In this document: in pieces, positions 3,034 to 22,788 of the stretch
Position numbering within the stretch: position 1 is the stretch's first letter
Layout: each line of letters begins with the position of its first letter
From: a virus
DNA: 22,788 nucleotides
Strand: one strand, 5' to 3'
IMG/VR virus record: IMGVR_UViG_3300043602_000079
Span: 1 to 22,788 of that record
Notes under the pieces: generated by a model
Seen by the model: only the letters and a program-made list of their open reading frames with translations
Database searches by the model: none
What the model was told of the DNA's origin: nothing
Position numbers and translations under genes: made by a program

Positions 3034-4571
3034 AGAACCCGAACGGCCCCGGGCGCAAGGTCCAGATCATCAATCAGCTGACCCACACGAAAGGCCCGTT
3101 CGCGGGGCAACCGTTCAAGCTCCGGCCCTGGCAAGAGAAGAAGATCATCCGGCCGCTCTTCAAGATCGACCGCCGCACGGGCAAGCGTCAGCATCGAATG
3201 TGCCTGTTGATGATGCCGCGCAAGAACGGGAAAACCGAACTCGTCGCCGCGCTCGCGATCGACGGGCTGTTGTTCGACGGGGAAATCGGCGCGGAAGTGT
3301 ACAGCGCGGCCGCGGACAAAGATCAGGCGTCGCTCGCGTTCAACGTCGCCGCGCAGATGATCCGGAACGACCCGGAGCTGCTCGCCCGCTGCGACATTCT
3401 CGACTCGCAGAAGCGGATCGTCGATCACAAGACGGGCTCGTTCTACCGCGCGATCTCGGCGGAGGCGTACTCCAAACATGGGTTCAACGCGTCGCGCGTC
3501 ATCTACGACGAGCTCCATGCCGCGCAGTCGCGCGAGCTCTGGGATGTCCTGACGTCGTCGACGGGCGCCCGCGCGCAACCGCTCGTGATTGCGATCTCGA
3601 CCGCCGGGTACGATCGGCATTCGATCTGCTTCGAAATGTACCAGCACGCGAAAAAGGTCCTCGAGACGCCCGCGCTCGATCCGACGTTCCTCCCGATCAT
3701 CTTTGAAGCGCCGGACGACGCCGACTGGACCGATGAGCGGGTCTGGGCCCGCGCGAATCCCGCGCTCGGGGACTTCCGATCGCTCGACGAGATGCGCGCC
3801 GCCTGTGCCCGCGCGAAGGAAGTCCCCGCGCAAGAGCAAGCGTTCCGCCGGCTGTACCTGAACCAATGGACCGAACAAGCGTCCCGCTGGATTGGGCTCG
3901 ACGCCTGGGACCGGTGCCAGGTCCCGATCGATCGTGCGACGCTCCGCGGCCGCCGGTGCTTCGTCGGGCTCGACTTGTCGACGACGACGGACCTGACCGC
4001 CGCGGTCGCCGTGTTTCCCGACGGCGATCAGTTCGACGTGCTCCCGCATTTCTTCGTCCCCGCGGAGCGGATCGCGATCCGATCGTCACGCGACCGCGTC
4101 CCGTACACCGAATGGGCGCGCGCGGGTCTGCTCACGGCGACGCCCGGGCCCGTCGTCGACTACGACTACATCCGCCGGCTGCTCCTCGATTGGGATCAGG
4201 AGTTCGACGTCCAGGTCGTCGCGTACGACCCTTGGAACGCGACCGACGTGATCAGCCGGCTCGAAAAGGTCGACGGGTTCACGTGCGCGAAGGTCCGCCA
4301 GGGGTTCGCGTCGCTCTCGGCGCCGTCGAAGCTGCTCGAGAAGGCCATCGTCGGGCAGCAGCTGCGGCACGACGGACACCCGATCCTCCGGTGGAACATC
4401 GGGAACATGTCGGTCGAATCGGACGCGGCGGGCAATATCAAACCCTCCAAGGACCTGTCGACGGAACGGATCGACGGCGGGTACGCGCTGATCATGGCGA
4501 TCGATGCGATGTCCCGCCACGGGCACGACGCGACGCCCGAATACCAGATGATCATCCTCGGCGGGGCGTAA
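3030..4571 (+). CDS. terL: Terminase large subunit
   Basis: This is the 513-residue DNA-packaging motor: an N-terminal ATPase pumps DNA into the prohead and a C-terminal nuclease cuts concatemers. The Walker A loop reads PRKNGKT at residues 63-69, the deviant form normal for the Terminase_1 (HK97-like) family. Walker B is VIYDE at 157-161. The RNase H-like nuclease has FVGLDLS (D315), VVAYDP (D400) and a late aspartate in ERIDGGYALIMAID near 487-495. ATG 3030 overlaps the previous stop as ATGA. The length is normal, all key residues are present, and an HNH protein encoded nearby probably assists cleavage. Confidence 0.95.
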   Translation: MKNPNGPGRKVQIINQLTHTKGPFAGQPFKLRPWQEKKIIRPLFKIDRRTGKRQHRMCLLMMPRKNGKTELVAALAIDGLLFDGEIGAEVYSAAADKDQASLAFNVAAQMIRNDPELLARCDILDSQKRIVDHKTGSFYRAISAEAYSKHGFNASRVIYDELHAAQSRELWDVLTSSTGARAQPLVIAISTAGYDRHSICFEMYQHAKKVLETPALDPTFLPIIFEAPDDADWTDERVWARANPALGDFRSLDEMRAACARAKEVPAQEQAFRRLYLNQWTEQASRWIGLDAWDRCQVPIDRATLRGRRCFVGLDLSTTTDLTAAVAVFPDGDQFDVLPHFFVPAERIAIRSSRDRVPYTEWARAGLLTATPGPVVDYDYIRRLLLDWDQEFDVQVVAYDPWNATDVISRLEKVDGFTCAKVRQGFASLSAPSKLLEKAIVGQQLRHDGHPILRWNIGNMSVESDAAGNIKPSKDLSTERIDGGYALIMAIDAMSRHGHDATPEYQMIILGGA

Positions 4572-16897: not shown

Positions 16898-16922
16898 TGG
16901 GGCGCCCCTGTGGGGCGGCCCC
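16898..16922. repeat. GC-rich palindromic repeats, left of attP core
   Basis: TGGGGCGCCCC (16898-16908) and GGGGCGGCCCC (16912-16922) are separated by three bases. They are candidate arm-type binding sites for integrase or an accessory protein. The second repeat ends 43 bases before the 15-bp core at 16966. Confidence 0.6.
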
Positions 16923-16964
16923 TCGTAGAAGTCATTTGGAATCACATACTTCTGGCGTCGACTC

Positions 16965-17014
16965 TCGCCTTCACACGGCGGGGGTCACTGGTTCGAGTCC
17001 AGTAGCGCCCACCA
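16965..17014 (+). other. attP: attP core: 3' half of tRNA-Val(CAC)
   Basis: The segment folds as the 3' half of a tRNA. It has an anticodon stem TCGCC/GGCGG around the loop TTCACAC (anticodon CAC, Val), a five-base variable region, a perfect T arm (ACTGG-TTCGAGT-CCAGT), the acceptor strand AGCGCCC and encoded ACCA. No matching 5' half (GGGCGCT plus D arm) precedes it, so it is not a working tRNA gene. Temperate phages that insert into tRNA genes carry exactly this fragment so the host gene is restored after integration. The integrase operon lies just downstream. Confidence 0.85.
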
Positions 17015-17042
17015 CTTAATCCCTTCCGATTCAAGCACTTAC

Positions 17043-17262
17043 GGGGGCGGCCCAAACGAACAACCCACACCGGGCCGCCCCAAGCGTAATTAGAAATAGT
17101 TAAAAATAGGCCGAAATATACGGGGTTGGAAAACTTGGGGCGACCCCTGGGGCGCCCCCAGAGCCCGAAAACCGGCCGCGGAGTGGCGCTCGCCTGTACT
17201 GGGCGATGGTGATCGGATTAGGCAAGTGGGGCGCCCCAAGGCCCCGAAATCTGGGGCCGCCC
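17043..17262. repeat. GC-rich palindromic repeats, right of attP core
   Basis: Six copies or near-copies are present: GGGGGCGGCCC (17043-17053), GGGCCGCCCC (17072-17081), GGGGCGACCCC (17137-17147), GGGGCGCCCCC (17149-17159), TGGGGCGCCCCA (17227-17238, perfect palindrome) and GGGGCCGCCC (17253-17262). They lie outside genes and share a sequence with the repeats at 16898-16922 and 19281-19317. The last ones approach the 3' end of the lipoprotein gene. Confidence 0.6.
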
Positions 17263-17273
17263 TGGGGGTCGTT

Positions 17274-17639
17274 CTAGGGAAGATGATTGACTTGCCGATG
17301 GCCCGTGTTCAGGTTGATCGTCACGATCGCGCGCCGCGCCGCTTGTTGCGCGTCCGTCATGTTCTCGATCCGCTCTGGCACCTGGCGCGCGTCCGTCCAG
17401 ACGTGGAGCATCACGGCGCGGTTCGGCATCGTGGGCAGGAGCGATTCCGCGATCTTGAACAGTGCGGCTTCATCCGTTGCGACTTTCTCGTCCACGACGA
17501 TCGACCGGATCATTCCCTGCTGAGCGACGATTCGGAACTTGGGTACGGGCTCTGGCCGTACGGTGCACGCGAGGGGCGCGAACAGGATCGTCGCCAGGAC
17601 GACCCATCGACGCAGTTTGCCCGCGAGCTCGGCGGTCAC
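17274..17639 (-). CDS. Lipoprotein-like protein in the integrase operon
   Basis: This 121-residue protein starts at GTG 17639, four bases after the stop of the 67-residue gene. Residues 8-25 are KLRRWVVLATILFAPLAC: a basic n-region, a hydrophobic h-region and Cys25 in PLAC, which resembles a lipobox though -3 is Pro rather than the usual Leu. The mature part is soluble and mixed alpha/beta (MPNRAVMLHVWTDARQVPERI). Transcribed with int, it may be made in the lysogen and act at the cell surface, for example in superinfection exclusion, but that is inference. No family is recognised. Confidence 0.6.
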   Translation of the reverse strand: MTAELAGKLRRWVVLATILFAPLACTVRPEPVPKFRIVAQQGMIRSIVVDEKVATDEAALFKIAESLLPTMPNRAVMLHVWTDARQVPERIENMTDAQQAARRAIVTINLNTGHRQVNHLP

Positions 17640-17643
17640 TGAA

Positions 17644-17847
17644 TCACCAGTCCTGCGGGTCCCGTTGACCTTGCGTGCTGGCCGACTCCCAGAATTCAAT
17701 TCTCGCGACGATCGCGCTCGCGACTCCGCGCATCAACGCCCGATTCGCCTCGGCCATGAGGGCCGCCTTGTCTGGACTGCCGGCCTCGTTCGTGTAGGCT
17801 TCTGCGCCCGCGGCTCGCAAAAACAGCACGTAGTACGGCTCTCTCAT
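17644..17847 (-). CDS. 67-residue hypothetical protein in the integrase operon
   Basis: The gene starts at ATG 17847 (CAT on the plus strand at 17845-17847), three bases after the int stop, and ends four bases before the lipoprotein start. The product is helical and Ala-rich (DKAALMAEANRALMRGVASAIVARIEFWESA), without membrane segment or cysteines. I do not recognise it. The tight spacing places it in one transcript with int and the lipoprotein-like gene. Confidence 0.62.
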   Translation of the reverse strand: MREPYYVLFLRAAGAEAYTNEAGSPDKAALMAEANRALMRGVASAIVARIEFWESASTQGQRDPQDW

Positions 17848-17850
17848 GGG

Positions 17851-19059
17851 CTACACGCCGCGGACTAGGCGCAAGCGGGAGGCGGGCGCGACCGGCGCGG
17901 GGATTGTGGCGATCGTCGCGTAGGCGGCGCCGGCTTTCGCGATGGCGGCGGCGACGCGCGCGGACACGGCGCCCCGCGTGTACCGTTTCGTCGTCTCGAA
18001 CGACGCGTGCTGCAGCAGCTCCGAGACGGCGCCGATGTCGCCCGTCTCGCGATAGATCTCGGACGCGAACGCGTGACGCAAGTCGTACGGACGACACCGC
18101 GGTGGGAGCGCGGCGATCTCGGCGGCCCACGACGGATCGCCCGTTTCGGCGGCGACGCGATGGGCCGCGGCCGTCGCCCGCGCGATCCCGACGCGCCAGG
18201 TCTTGCCGATGCTCGAGCCCGACCAGGTTCGCTCCAGTAAGCCCGCGGCCGCGAAGTCGCGGAACGCGTCGACCGCGAGCGGGAGCAGCGTGACCCAGGC
18301 GCCGTGCGTCCCCTTACCTTTACGTCGGGGACGGAGGTACACGCGCGATCGCTCAAGATCGAGATCGCGGGCGCGCACGCGTCGGAGTGTGGCCGGCGCG
18401 ATTCCCGTCCAGGCCATCACGCGCAAGCGGAGTTTCGTTTCCGAGATCGTCGGGCGCGTTTCGCCGGCCGCCGCGCGGCCCTGATCGGGCAACGACGAGA
18501 GAATCAACTGGACGATCCGCGCGGGGATGTCTCGCGGCTCGGCTTTCGGTTCGCGCAAGTACTGGATCTTGTCAGTCGGGTTCTCGTCGTCGATGCCGTC
18601 GAGCGCGTGAAACAGTTTCCGCAAACGGCCGAGTCGACGGTTGCAGGAATTCTCCGCCGCGCCCGCCGTCGTCCAGTCGGAGATCACGCCGATCAGATCG
18701 AGACGCGAGATCGAGCGGCGATCGCGGTCGCCTAACGGGCTCCGCGCCCAGTGACTGAGCAGACCTTCCGTATCGACGCGGTACCGCCCTTCGGGCAACG
18801 CCGCGACGAACTCCGCGATGTCGGCCGCGAGCGATCCGCGCGATGGCGTAGCGCTCGCCGGCGCCGCGGTCGCGAGCTCGTGGCGGGCGCCGTGCTGCCA
18901 CGCCTTTATCTCCCCGATCGAGGTACCGAGCTTGAACCGTTGGCGCGCCCGCTGTTGGGTACCGTCGCGGGAACTGCCGATCCGGACTTCGCCGACGAGG
19001 ACATCGCCGTCGCGAAAGATTCCTTGACCGATCCGGATCCGGGGTTGTTGTCGTGGCAT
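17851..19059 (-). CDS. int: Tyrosine recombinase (phage integrase), with a non-canonical first Arg position
   Basis: This 402-residue integrase should catalyse attP/attB recombination. The N-terminus (IFRDGDVLVGEVRIGSS...KLGTSIGEIKAWQHGARHEL) resembles an arm-binding domain. Residues about 75-165 are a core-binding helical domain. In the catalytic domain K247/K249 lie in RRKGKG, PYDLRH gives Y325 and R328 (the usual HxxR begins with Y here), LLQH gives H351 and TKRY the nucleophile Y360. The first catalytic Arg, normally in TG(L/I)R, reads TGIA (A221) followed by PATLRRVR. Divergent promoters lie upstream, and the attP lies beyond the downstream operon. Family-wide loss of that Arg, or use of R225/R226, is possible. 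Confidence 0.88.
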   Translation of the reverse strand: MPRQQPRIRIGQGIFRDGDVLVGEVRIGSSRDGTQQRARQRFKLGTSIGEIKAWQHGARHELATAAPASATPSRGSLAADIAEFVAALPEGRYRVDTEGLLSHWARSPLGDRDRRSISRLDLIGVISDWTTAGAAENSCNRRLGRLRKLFHALDGIDDENPTDKIQYLREPKAEPRDIPARIVQLILSSLPDQGRAAAGETRPTISETKLRLRVMAWTGIAPATLRRVRARDLDLERSRVYLRPRRKGKGTHGAWVTLLPLAVDAFRDFAAAGLLERTWSGSSIGKTWRVGIARATAAAHRVAAETGDPSWAAEIAALPPRCRPYDLRHAFASEIYRETGDIGAVSELLQHASFETTKRYTRGAVSARVAAAIAKAGAAYATIATIPAPVAPASRLRLVRGV

Positions 19060-19117
19060 GTCGTCAGAACTCCGTCAGAGCGCGCGGGCGTCGCGGCGCG
19101 TCATATCACACAATCGC

Positions 19118-19139
19118 CTAATTCTGACTAATTCTAGTC
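19118..19139. repeat. Tandem decamer and palindrome at the int promoter
   Basis: CTAATTCTGA (19118-19127) and CTAATTCTAG (19128-19137) are a tandem repeat. GACTA-ATTC-TAGTC (19126-19139) is a perfect inverted repeat. Both overlap the proposed -10 of the leftward promoter, which fits an operator. Confidence 0.5.
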
Positions 19140-19158
19140 TGAAACCTTGACAATACAA
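19131..19158 (-). promoter_or_regulatory. Candidate leftward promoter for the integrase operon
   Basis: On the minus strand TTGTAT (19158-19153) is followed after 16 bases by TAGAAT (19136-19131), one mismatch from TATAAT. It points toward the int start at 19059. The -35 is only a partial match, so this is a moderate call. Confidence 0.4.
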
Positions 19159-19176
19159 TTGCACACCTTCTACAAC
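19147..19176 (+). promoter_or_regulatory. Candidate rightward early promoter
   Basis: TTGACA (19147-19152) is a perfect sigma70-type -35; TACAAC (19171-19176) after 18 bases is a moderate -10. It would drive the HTH gene at 19374 and the genes beyond. Its -35 abuts the proposed leftward -35, so the two promoters are likely mutually exclusive. Confidence 0.45.
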
Positions 19177-19191
19177 AGTTCGAAGTGATTG

Positions 19192-19237
19192 GCGTGTGAA
19201 GTTATTGCATTTTGAATAAAATCGCCGTGTGAAGGCG
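19192..19237. repeat. Inverted copies of the attP core sequence upstream of int
   Basis: CGCCGTGTGAAGGCG at 19223-19237 is the exact reverse complement of 15 bases of the attP anticodon stem-loop (16966-16980). A shorter copy, GCGTGTGAAG, lies at 19192-19201. Chance identity of 15 bases in a genome of this size is improbable. The larger copy lies 43 bases from GGGGCCGCCCC at 19281, the same spacing and relative orientation as in attP. Confidence 0.75.
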
Positions 19238-19280
19238 TGGGCCAACGATGGAAACCCTTTTTCTATCGTGATTTGGCGGA

Positions 19281-19317
19281 GGGGCCGCCCCAACGGGCCG
19301 CCCCGATGGGGCCGCCC
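19281..19317. repeat. Three GC-rich palindromic repeats in the int upstream region
   Basis: GGGGCCGCCCC (19281-19291), GGGCCGCCCC (19295-19304) and GGGGCCGCCC (19308-19317) are each separated by exactly three bases. They match the repeats flanking attP and occur in the early leader. They may be integrase arm sites, or operators bound by the HTH protein encoded next. Confidence 0.65.
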
Positions 19318-19373
19318 TTCACCGGTACGTCGCCCCCCGACACCTGTCGAGGGATTCCACAAAGGGGACCGCC

Positions 19374-19685
19374 GTGAAGCATTCACTCGCACCCGTGCTC
19401 GACCTCGAGGCCCTGCCCGTCATCCTGACGTTGAACGAACTCGCGCCGATCTACCGCTTGTCGGAGTCCACGATCCGGCGCCAGGTCCAGCAGGGCACGT
19501 TCGCCCCGCGCCCCTGGGATAAGTACCCGTATCGGTGGCGCCGCGAGGATGTACTCGCGGACCTGAAACGCCCGCGCGCCGAAAAGCCGCGGCGCCCGCA
19601 TGGCTTCGCCGCGACGCTGCCGAGACTCCGCGCCGCGAAAGCGACGCTCCCTCCGATGACTCCCGCGCGCCGCGGCCGCCGCTGA
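19374..19685 (+). CDS. Helix-turn-helix protein, excisionase/AlpA-like
   Basis: The first gene of the rightward operon encodes 103 residues. Residues about 18-65 (ILTLNELAPIYRLSESTIRRQVQQG...PYRWRREDVLADL) match the winged HTH of MerR/AlpA/excisionase-type proteins: a first helix, recognition helix STIRRQVQQG, and the wing before EDVL. The C-terminus is Arg/Pro-rich and basic. Such proteins act in excision or control the int/early switch, which fits its site next to the divergent promoters. GTG 19374 is chosen for AAAGGGGA at 19361-19368. A repressor role is equally possible, since no other repressor is seen. Confidence 0.72.
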   Translation: MKHSLAPVLDLEALPVILTLNELAPIYRLSESTIRRQVQQGTFAPRPWDKYPYRWRREDVLADLKRPRAEKPRRPHGFAATLPRLRAAKATLPPMTPARRGRR

Positions 19686-21728: not shown

Positions 21729-21962
21729 ATGACGCTCACCTGGTCGGACGACGAACAAGCGGCGGTGAATGAGATCCGCCGCGCGGGGCGCTTTCGCAGC
21801 GAGGCGGACGCGATCCGGGGCGCGCTCTGGTGGTACGCGCGCTTCCTCGAGCTCGACGTCCCGCCGGACGTGTTCGCCCTCTCGCTGCCGGCCGGCACGC
21901 GGCACGCGGCGGACGACCAGGGCGATCTGGGTTGTGAAGAACACGAAGGCTTTCTCGGTTGA
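21729..21962 (+). CDS. RHH-like small DNA-binding protein
   Basis: This 77-residue protein begins MTLTWSDDEQAAVNEIRRAGRFRSEADAIRGALWWYARFLEL, a helix-turn-helix arrangement like the second half of a ribbon-helix-helix protein (SEADAIRGAL). The rest is acidic. ATG 21729 is seven bases after the membrane-peptide stop. The fold is inferred from pattern, and a toxin partner is not apparent. Confidence 0.5.
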   Translation: MTLTWSDDEQAAVNEIRRAGRFRSEADAIRGALWWYARFLELDVPPDVFALSLPAGTRHAADDQGDLGCEEHEGFLG

Positions 21963-21976
21963 AGGAGATCTCCGCA

Positions 21977-22732
21977 ATGAAGCACGTTCTGTACGCCGTC
22001 CTCTGTCTCGCCCTCGCGTCGACCGCGGACGCGTCGGCCCTGTTGAACTTCACGTCCGGCGCGGCCGCGGCGCTCTGCGATACCCGCGTCGCCGTCTCCG
22101 CCATCAACTGCGGCGCGGGGTTCACGGTTGTCGGCGACACGATCGCATACGTGGGCGCGATCGGAACGTGGCAGATCGACACGCTCGCGATCACGACGTC
22201 CAACACGCCAGGCGCCCCGACGCTCGGCAAGATCAACCTGGGCCTGGTCGACGTGCGTCACCTGAGCGGGCCCGACGATCTGACGGTGGACTTCGGCCAC
22301 GATAGGTTCACCGCGCCCGTCGGCCAGGGCCCGCTGACGGCCACGGGCGCCGACAGTGCCGACACGGTCGTCGCGGGCGATGCGTCGTACCTGACCGGGT
22401 ACGCCCGCAATGCGAACGACATGGCGATCGCCGCCCCGACGTCGGCCACGGCCCTCGACGTGATCCTGCACGTGCCCGGGTGCTTCCCGGCCGCCGGCGC
22501 GACGCAGTCGTGCGCGATGAACTCGCCGGACGTCCCGTTCACGGTCGTCGGGCCGTTCTACAGCCTGAGCGCCCGGGCGGAGATTCATCAACACACGAGC
22601 GCGACCGACCAGGCGTCGTACTTGGCGAAGGCGGCGGCGACCGTGCCCGTCGTGCCGGAACCGGGGACGCTGCTCCTGATCGGGACGGGGCTACTCCTGG
22701 CGCGGCTCGGGCGCCGGGCGGGCGCGCGGTGA
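21977..22732 (+). CDS. PEP-CTERM sorting-signal exported protein
   Basis: This 251-residue protein has a signal peptide (residues 1-20, MKHVLYAVLCLALASTADAS) and a C-terminal VPEPGTLLLIGTGLLLARLG-R-R sequence: PEP at 227-229, a hydrophobic span, and a basic end. That is a classic PEP-CTERM signal, which in many Gram-negative bacteria is cleaved by exosortase during export. Between them is a mostly beta-strand region with two Cys pairs. GAAGGAGA just before ATG 21977 supports the start. It shows no obvious match to a virion protein, so it is best read as a cargo gene altering the host surface. Confidence 0.88.
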   Translation: MKHVLYAVLCLALASTADASALLNFTSGAAAALCDTRVAVSAINCGAGFTVVGDTIAYVGAIGTWQIDTLAITTSNTPGAPTLGKINLGLVDVRHLSGPDDLTVDFGHDRFTAPVGQGPLTATGADSADTVVAGDASYLTGYARNANDMAIAAPTSATALDVILHVPGCFPAAGATQSCAMNSPDVPFTVVGPFYSLSARAEIHQHTSATDQASYLAKAAATVPVVPEPGTLLLIGTGLLLARLGRRAGAR

Positions 22733-22788
22733 CGGGCCCGATCGCGCGCGTCACCTGTCCAGGCTGCGGCGGGCTCTTCGCGCGGCGC
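22729..22788 (+). CDS. Zinc-ribbon protein, 5' part of the junction-spanning gene
   Basis: GTG 22729 overlaps the PEP-CTERM stop (GTGA) and begins MTGPIARVTCPGCGGLFARR, which reaches the right end of the contig. The frame continues without a break at base 19 after the 18-base terminal repeat, giving the 81-residue protein described at 1-204. The 5' part carries the first cysteine pair, CPGC. The tight fit on both sides of the join supports a true circle. Confidence 0.72.
   Translation, partial: MTGPIARVTCPGCGGLFARR
22771..22788. repeat. Terminal direct repeat, right copy
   Basis: These 18 bases equal bases 1-18, as described for the left copy. One of the two copies should be removed when closing the circle. 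Confidence 0.8.

Follow-up and report, generated by a model that had tools for sequence, protein, structure and literature searches.

An Inverted, attR-Like Second Integrase Site at the Regulator Border of a Small Soil Phage

The genome of a soil phage analyzed here carries, in addition to its attachment site attP, a second site of similar build (site 2) that lies inverted where the integrase module borders on the first regulator gene. The first-pass annotation had described this site as att-like, a description now strongly supported: in three lineages, the core, arm repeats, and geometry of site 2 track those of attP. From these sequence comparisons, we give roughly even odds (a probability of about 0.5) to a reading in which site 2 is a second assembly site for the integrase (Int) and controls the adjoining regulatory region.

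The Phage and Its Attachment Site

The window (the whole stretch of DNA that was analyzed) is an IMG/VR virus record of 22,788 bp. An exact 18-bp direct repeat is common to both ends (1-18 and 22771-22788), and the record, although classed as linear, is therefore probably the complete circular genome, about 22.77 kb, of a small tailed phage. Family matches indicate that the window encodes a terminase, a portal, and a capsid protein. A PEP-CTERM sorting motif (Pfam 1.3e-4) marks the C terminus of one further phage gene product (21959-22732). A comparison with INPHARED phages gave no match to the integrase, and no portal relative exceeded 31% identity.

The attP site follows the tail genes. Its core, CGCCTTCACACGGCG (16966-16980, plus strand), consists of 4-bp half-sites around the 7-bp overlap TTCACAC, corresponds to the anticodon stem-loop of tRNA-Val(CAC), and begins the 3' half of that tRNA, which the phage carries (16966-17014, plus strand). 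The P arm (16899-16922, plus strand) holds two tandem arm-type repeats (16899-16908 and 16912-16922) with CGCCC at +48 and +61 from the core. The P' side (17044-17159, no strand assigned) holds further arm repeats (17044-17054, 17071-17081, 17137-17147, and 17149-17159) and a conserved TTAAAAATAGGCC element (17100-17112). A tRNA 3' half, a core in the anticodon stem-loop, and flanking arm repeats are together the marks of an attP that uses a tRNA gene. Intact tRNA-Val genes in three Acidobacteria MAGs have a 3' half identical to the one carried by the phage, which points to Acidobacteria as the host. No lysogen with a related integrase was found in genome contigs, and no close lysogen of the window clade among 193 genomes of the class and 396 of the phylum Acidobacteria.

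The attP core lies 870 bp past the 3' end of int, and the tRNA and int are convergent. The integrase (17851-19059, minus strand) is a 402-aa tyrosine recombinase (PF00589, 7.6e-11; PHROG 1 and 216) whose motif residues R, K, LRH, H, and Y are invariant among relatives. A 67-aa ORF (17644-17847, minus strand) and a 141-aa ORF with a lipobox-like LAC (17274-17699, minus strand), neither of which has a Pfam match, complete the set of three genes that the first-pass annotation had correctly placed between the two sites. The 141-aa ORF is variable cargo, since the sequence between int and attP is different in every relative.

Site 2 and Its Surroundings

As first annotated, the attP core recurs as an exact reverse complement at 19223-19237 (minus strand); the window contains no further exact copy of the 15 bp. 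Also correct was the observation that GGGGCGGCCCC stands 43 bp from the core at both sites (16912-16922; 19281-19291 on the minus strand) and that a second repeat follows after 3 bp (TGT at attP, AAC at site 2). The arm region of site 2 (19281-19318, minus strand) contains three repeats (19281-19291, 19295-19304, and 19308-19318), the first two with CGCCC at +48 and +61 as in attP. Site 2 thus copies the P-arm half of attP, with the same 15-bp core, core-to-arm distance, and 13-bp arm period, and consists of the parts of an attR (core and P arms) without the bacterial half. The 43-bp match alone is weaker evidence than first thought, because attP, int, and site 2 are surrounded by about ten repeats of the GGGG..CCCC family.

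On its outer side, site 2 borders a divergent 103-aa HTH_17 gene (19374-19685, plus strand; PF12728, 1.7e-6; PHROG 66, 1.7e-7), the product of which is, by family similarity, a probable excisionase or regulator. A conserved TCGTGATTT (19266-19274, plus strand) between the core and the arms is a candidate element of the regulator promoter. On the int side, two invariant, promoter-like 17-bp blocks, CTAGAATTAGTCAGAAT and TATTGTCAAGGTTTCAG, are found at 19121-19155 (minus strand), and the core lies about 65 bp upstream of the promoter-like block. A strict sigma-70 scan of the int/HTH intergenic region gave no hit, neither for the int blocks nor for a regulator promoter. A role for the core as a hairpin or terminator in the leader RNA of int was not supported, as the promoter-like blocks lie downstream of the core and a terminator scan found none.

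Conservation and Co-variation of Site 2

Four contigs (L003, L004, L005, and the near-identical L006), whose integrases are 84-86% identical to that of the window, share its tRNA-Val target and carry the exact site 2 core at -178 from the int start. Across the four distinct phages of this Val clade, the int/HTH intergenic region holds three invariant 17-bp blocks, namely the core plus AT (2 bp) and the two promoter-like blocks, against a background invariance of 43% in the local flanks and 55% at fourfold-degenerate sites of int. Because the core is invariant at -178 in every phage of the clade against this 43-55% background, site 2 is, on sequence conservation, beyond chance; a rough estimate, which assumes independent columns, puts the probability of 15 invariant columns at 3e-6 to 1.5e-4. 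The arm repeats of the clade lie 48 and 61 bp from the core at attP versus 48-49 and 61-62 bp at site 2. The identical core-to-arm spacing first noted is therefore exact in the window, whereas in relatives it measures 43 bp at attP and 44 bp at site 2. Arm co-variation inside the clade (GGCC versus GACC) was set aside as weak, since the P' arms vary likewise.

Two contigs extend the picture of the Val-type core. L052 encodes another relative of the window integrase and has a Val-type attP core, TGCCTTCACACGGCG (position 3688), but ends before the int upstream region. L012, a contig without a window-type integrase, has window-like P arms and the Val core (3468-3545) beside an unrelated P4-type integrase and a degraded tRNA half.

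Two other lineages, L039 and L074, which are related phages by tail protein, have their own versions of site 2. The L039 integrase is about 60% identical to that of the window, and its attP lies in tRNA-Arg(CCT); its second core, CGCACTCCTAAGGCG, stands at -181 from int and compares with an attP core of CGCCCTCCTAAGGCG, while its arms, GGCCATCCC, lie at 46/58 at site 2 versus 45/58 at attP. L074 encodes a distant 393-aa integrase and has its attP in tRNA-Glu; its second core, GGCCCTTTCAAGGCG, is inverted, lies downstream of int, and compares with an attP core of GGCCCTTTCAAGGCT, and its GGGGACC arms lie at 37/49 at site 2 versus 36/48 at attP. Both second cores are inverted, match the respective attP core at 14 of 15 positions, preserve the 7-bp overlap exactly, with the mismatches confined to the half-sites, and have two arm repeats beside them. 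The letters of the core, those of the arms, and the core-to-arm distance thus each agree with the attP of the same phage, and overlap-scrambled cores used as a control gave 0 matches in 299 trials. This co-variation identifies site 2, at the level of sequence, as an attR-like assembly site for the integrase that is real and maintained.

It also bears on whether site 2 could be a chance match or a non-functional leftover of a duplication. The 22 bp beside the core are 50% alike between attP and site 2 at the same offset, compared with 13-33% at shifts of 1-4 bp, a partial flank similarity compatible with an old inverted duplication. However, the core has stayed invariant while the flanks diverged, and neither the three co-varying cases nor the scrambled-overlap control fits an inert remnant, which we regard as very improbable.

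The attP layout is constant among integrase relatives: the core is accompanied by a pair of outward arm repeats with a spacing of about 13 bp and by P' repeats that surround an A/T-rich element. The letters of the arm-type repeats vary widely between related phages (CGCCCCA, GGCCATCCC, GTTCCCCCA, CCCCGCCCC, TGTCACGCA, and GTACACA), as seen by comparing the attP regions of the window, L003-L010, L016-L019, L039, L041, L053, and L056. The core-to-arm geometry is nearly constant despite these changes, and the set offers a natural series for the study of integrase arm-domain specificity.

Relatives Without Site 2

The first-pass annotation had proposed that the duplicate would be incidental if related phages kept attP without it. 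The relatives are split on this point: the close Val clade keeps the second copy, many more distant relatives lack it, and two lineages have their own version. No second core was found in L007-L009 and L016 (Arg-TCT), in L010, L017-L019, and L053 (Arg-CCT), or in L041, L047, and L056. Searches upstream of int for each phage's own arm heptamers found none in L007, L009, L016-L019, L041, and L056, and in L010 and L053 found only isolated heptamers far upstream, with no tandem pair. A weak half-site in L047 (11/15 at -168, p 0.06) was not counted, as arm repeats are missing nearby. Other phages share the Val core but have unrelated integrases; these carry a single core. In L007-L009, a second small helix-turn-helix gene, of AlpA type as read from the sequence, appears to lie beside attP, between int and attP.

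Because many relatives lack it, site 2 is evidently optional, and mapping the trait onto the integrase tree takes two changes between the window clade and L039; it would be either old with losses or gained repeatedly.

Possible Functions of Site 2

Three features are constant in the three lineages: int lies between attP and site 2, the cores are inverted, and the arm pairs face outward. Site 2 also lies within about 140 bp upstream of the start of an HTH gene in all three. In the window and L039, it is placed between the divergent int and HTH_17 genes; in L074, int is reversed (tRNA-then-int order) and site 2 falls between the end of int and an XRE regulator. The earlier proposal that Int binds its own promoter region consequently fits by position in the window and L039 but not in L074, where site 2 is downstream of int; the neighbor common to all three is the regulator gene.

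The favored reading, in which site 2 serves as a second assembly site, would work as follows. An Int dimer would bind the site 2 core and contact the arm pair as in attR, and the resulting complex would cover or loop the DNA directly preceding the regulator gene (HTH_17, or XRE in L074), such that rising Int would lower regulator expression. In the window and L039, the complex would also reset the divergent int promoter. The expected outcome is that integration would be favored over excision and lytic growth. Consistent with an assembly site, where the second core is missing (L007, L009, L016-L019, and L041), the phage's own arm repeats are missing upstream of int as well. The same divergent HTH gene is nevertheless present without site 2 in L007-L009, L016, L017, and L041, and regulation therefore does not require the site. 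A further point against a regulatory role is that the 7-bp overlap would be superfluous in a pure operator.

A narrower version holds that site 2 only autoregulates int. An int promoter overlapping attL mediates negative autoregulation by IntS of the KplE1 prophage, and convergent (OC) tRNA-int pairs, as here, are predicted not to be autoregulated (PMC2951348); site 2 could replace such an overlap for an integrase convergent with its tRNA. The fixed distance of -178/-181 from the int start and the conserved promoter-like blocks of the window clade agree with this proposal. However, it alone does not explain L074, because site 2 there is downstream of int in a tRNA-then-int arrangement; the close convergent relatives L007-L009 manage without the site, and the core sits well upstream of the promoter-like block. 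We therefore consider autoregulation alone unlikely.

Because the 7-bp overlap is exact, site 2 may also be competent for recombination. Its exchange with attP or attL would invert the int segment and keep int rather than delete it, because site 2 is inverted. A tentative alternative is accordingly that site 2 is a working recombination site at which Int (with Xis in a lysogen) inverts the int segment as a switch. In a lysogen, site 2 would mimic attR and could pair with the int-proximal att end; the outward P arms would restore a full attP at the opposite border, with a swap of the DNA that precedes the regulator gene. The crossover regions fit this proposal: in the window clade they are identical over 15/15 positions, and L039 and L074 keep 7/7 of the overlap, even though no tRNA occupies site 2. 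So do the inverted orientation (3/3), the sole orientation without loss of int, and the equivalent P-arm geometry at both sites, by which a functional attP would be kept. Conversely, none of the 7 contigs with both sites (the window, L003-L006, L039, and L074) is inverted, the tRNA half always being on the tail side. Pattern scans of viral contigs (core plus inner site 2 flank; core plus tRNA half) returned known contigs and unrelated matches but no swapped junction, and inversion in an integrated phage would break the host tRNA gene. The fuller model of an Int/Xis latch, in which the int segment would flip between attP (or, in a lysogen, the att end nearest to int) and the attR-like site, rewriting the DNA upstream of the lysis-lysogeny regulator with attP functional in both states, is slightly more doubtful.

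The suggestion that the segment is a mobile integrase cassette with flanking att-like ends has in its favor that Int lies between two inverted sites. It is not supported by the comparison: what lies between the sites varies from phage to phage, the arm-bearing sides face outward, the tRNA half and P' arms occur at one end only, and the segment always lies between the tail genes and the regulator gene. A cassette is barely credible.

Relation to Known Systems

The usual view is that a phage genome has one att site and that regulation arises where this site overlaps a promoter. In phage P2, the excisionase Cox also binds early promoters. The Apl excisionase of phage 186 binds both att and early promoters (PMC7498355), and together with KplE1 IntS provides precedent for recombination proteins that double as regulators (PMC2951348; PMC7498355). 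As proposed here from sequence, IntS controls phage genes close to an att located in a tRNA by way of the core- and arm-type sites of the integrase itself. Unlike here, its regulatory site is attL itself; in the window, attP is found beyond the 3' end of int, and a separate half-att stands inverted at the regulator border. The window accordingly shows no attL or attP overlapping the int promoter in the STI or OD shape of the KplE1 type. Apl and Cox resemble the present case in that a recombination protein has sites both at att and at lysis-lysogeny promoters, but theirs is a directionality factor, whereas the letters of site 2 are those of the integrase core and arm sites, crossover overlap included.

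Inversion by tyrosine recombinases is known from Int1 of phiH1, phiCh1, and ChaoS9 (PMC6471424), Rin of bifidophages (PMC6109161), and the E. coli fim switch (PMC9993118). They resemble the arrangement described here in that inverted recombinase sites bound a segment, which in phiCh1 contains the recombinase gene. These systems, however, employ dedicated invertases at tail-fibre or fimbrial loci, Rin lacks an arm-binding domain, and here it is the integration enzyme's own att specificity that is duplicated, with no inverted isoform among the 7 contigs.

A second inverted att half-site flanking int was not described in the literature searched, most subscription journals being outside its reach. 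Site 2 represents a second half-att site that three lineages, each with its own tRNA target, arm letters, and core-to-arm distances, have kept at the border of the regulator, and offers a natural case of attachment specificity and gene control evolving together. Its presence suggests a further role for the integrase in controlling, or flipping, the decision region of the phage, and raises the question of whether Int represses the regulator or flips its own gene. Should site 2 recombine, engineered integrase/excisionase inversion switches would have a natural counterpart in it.
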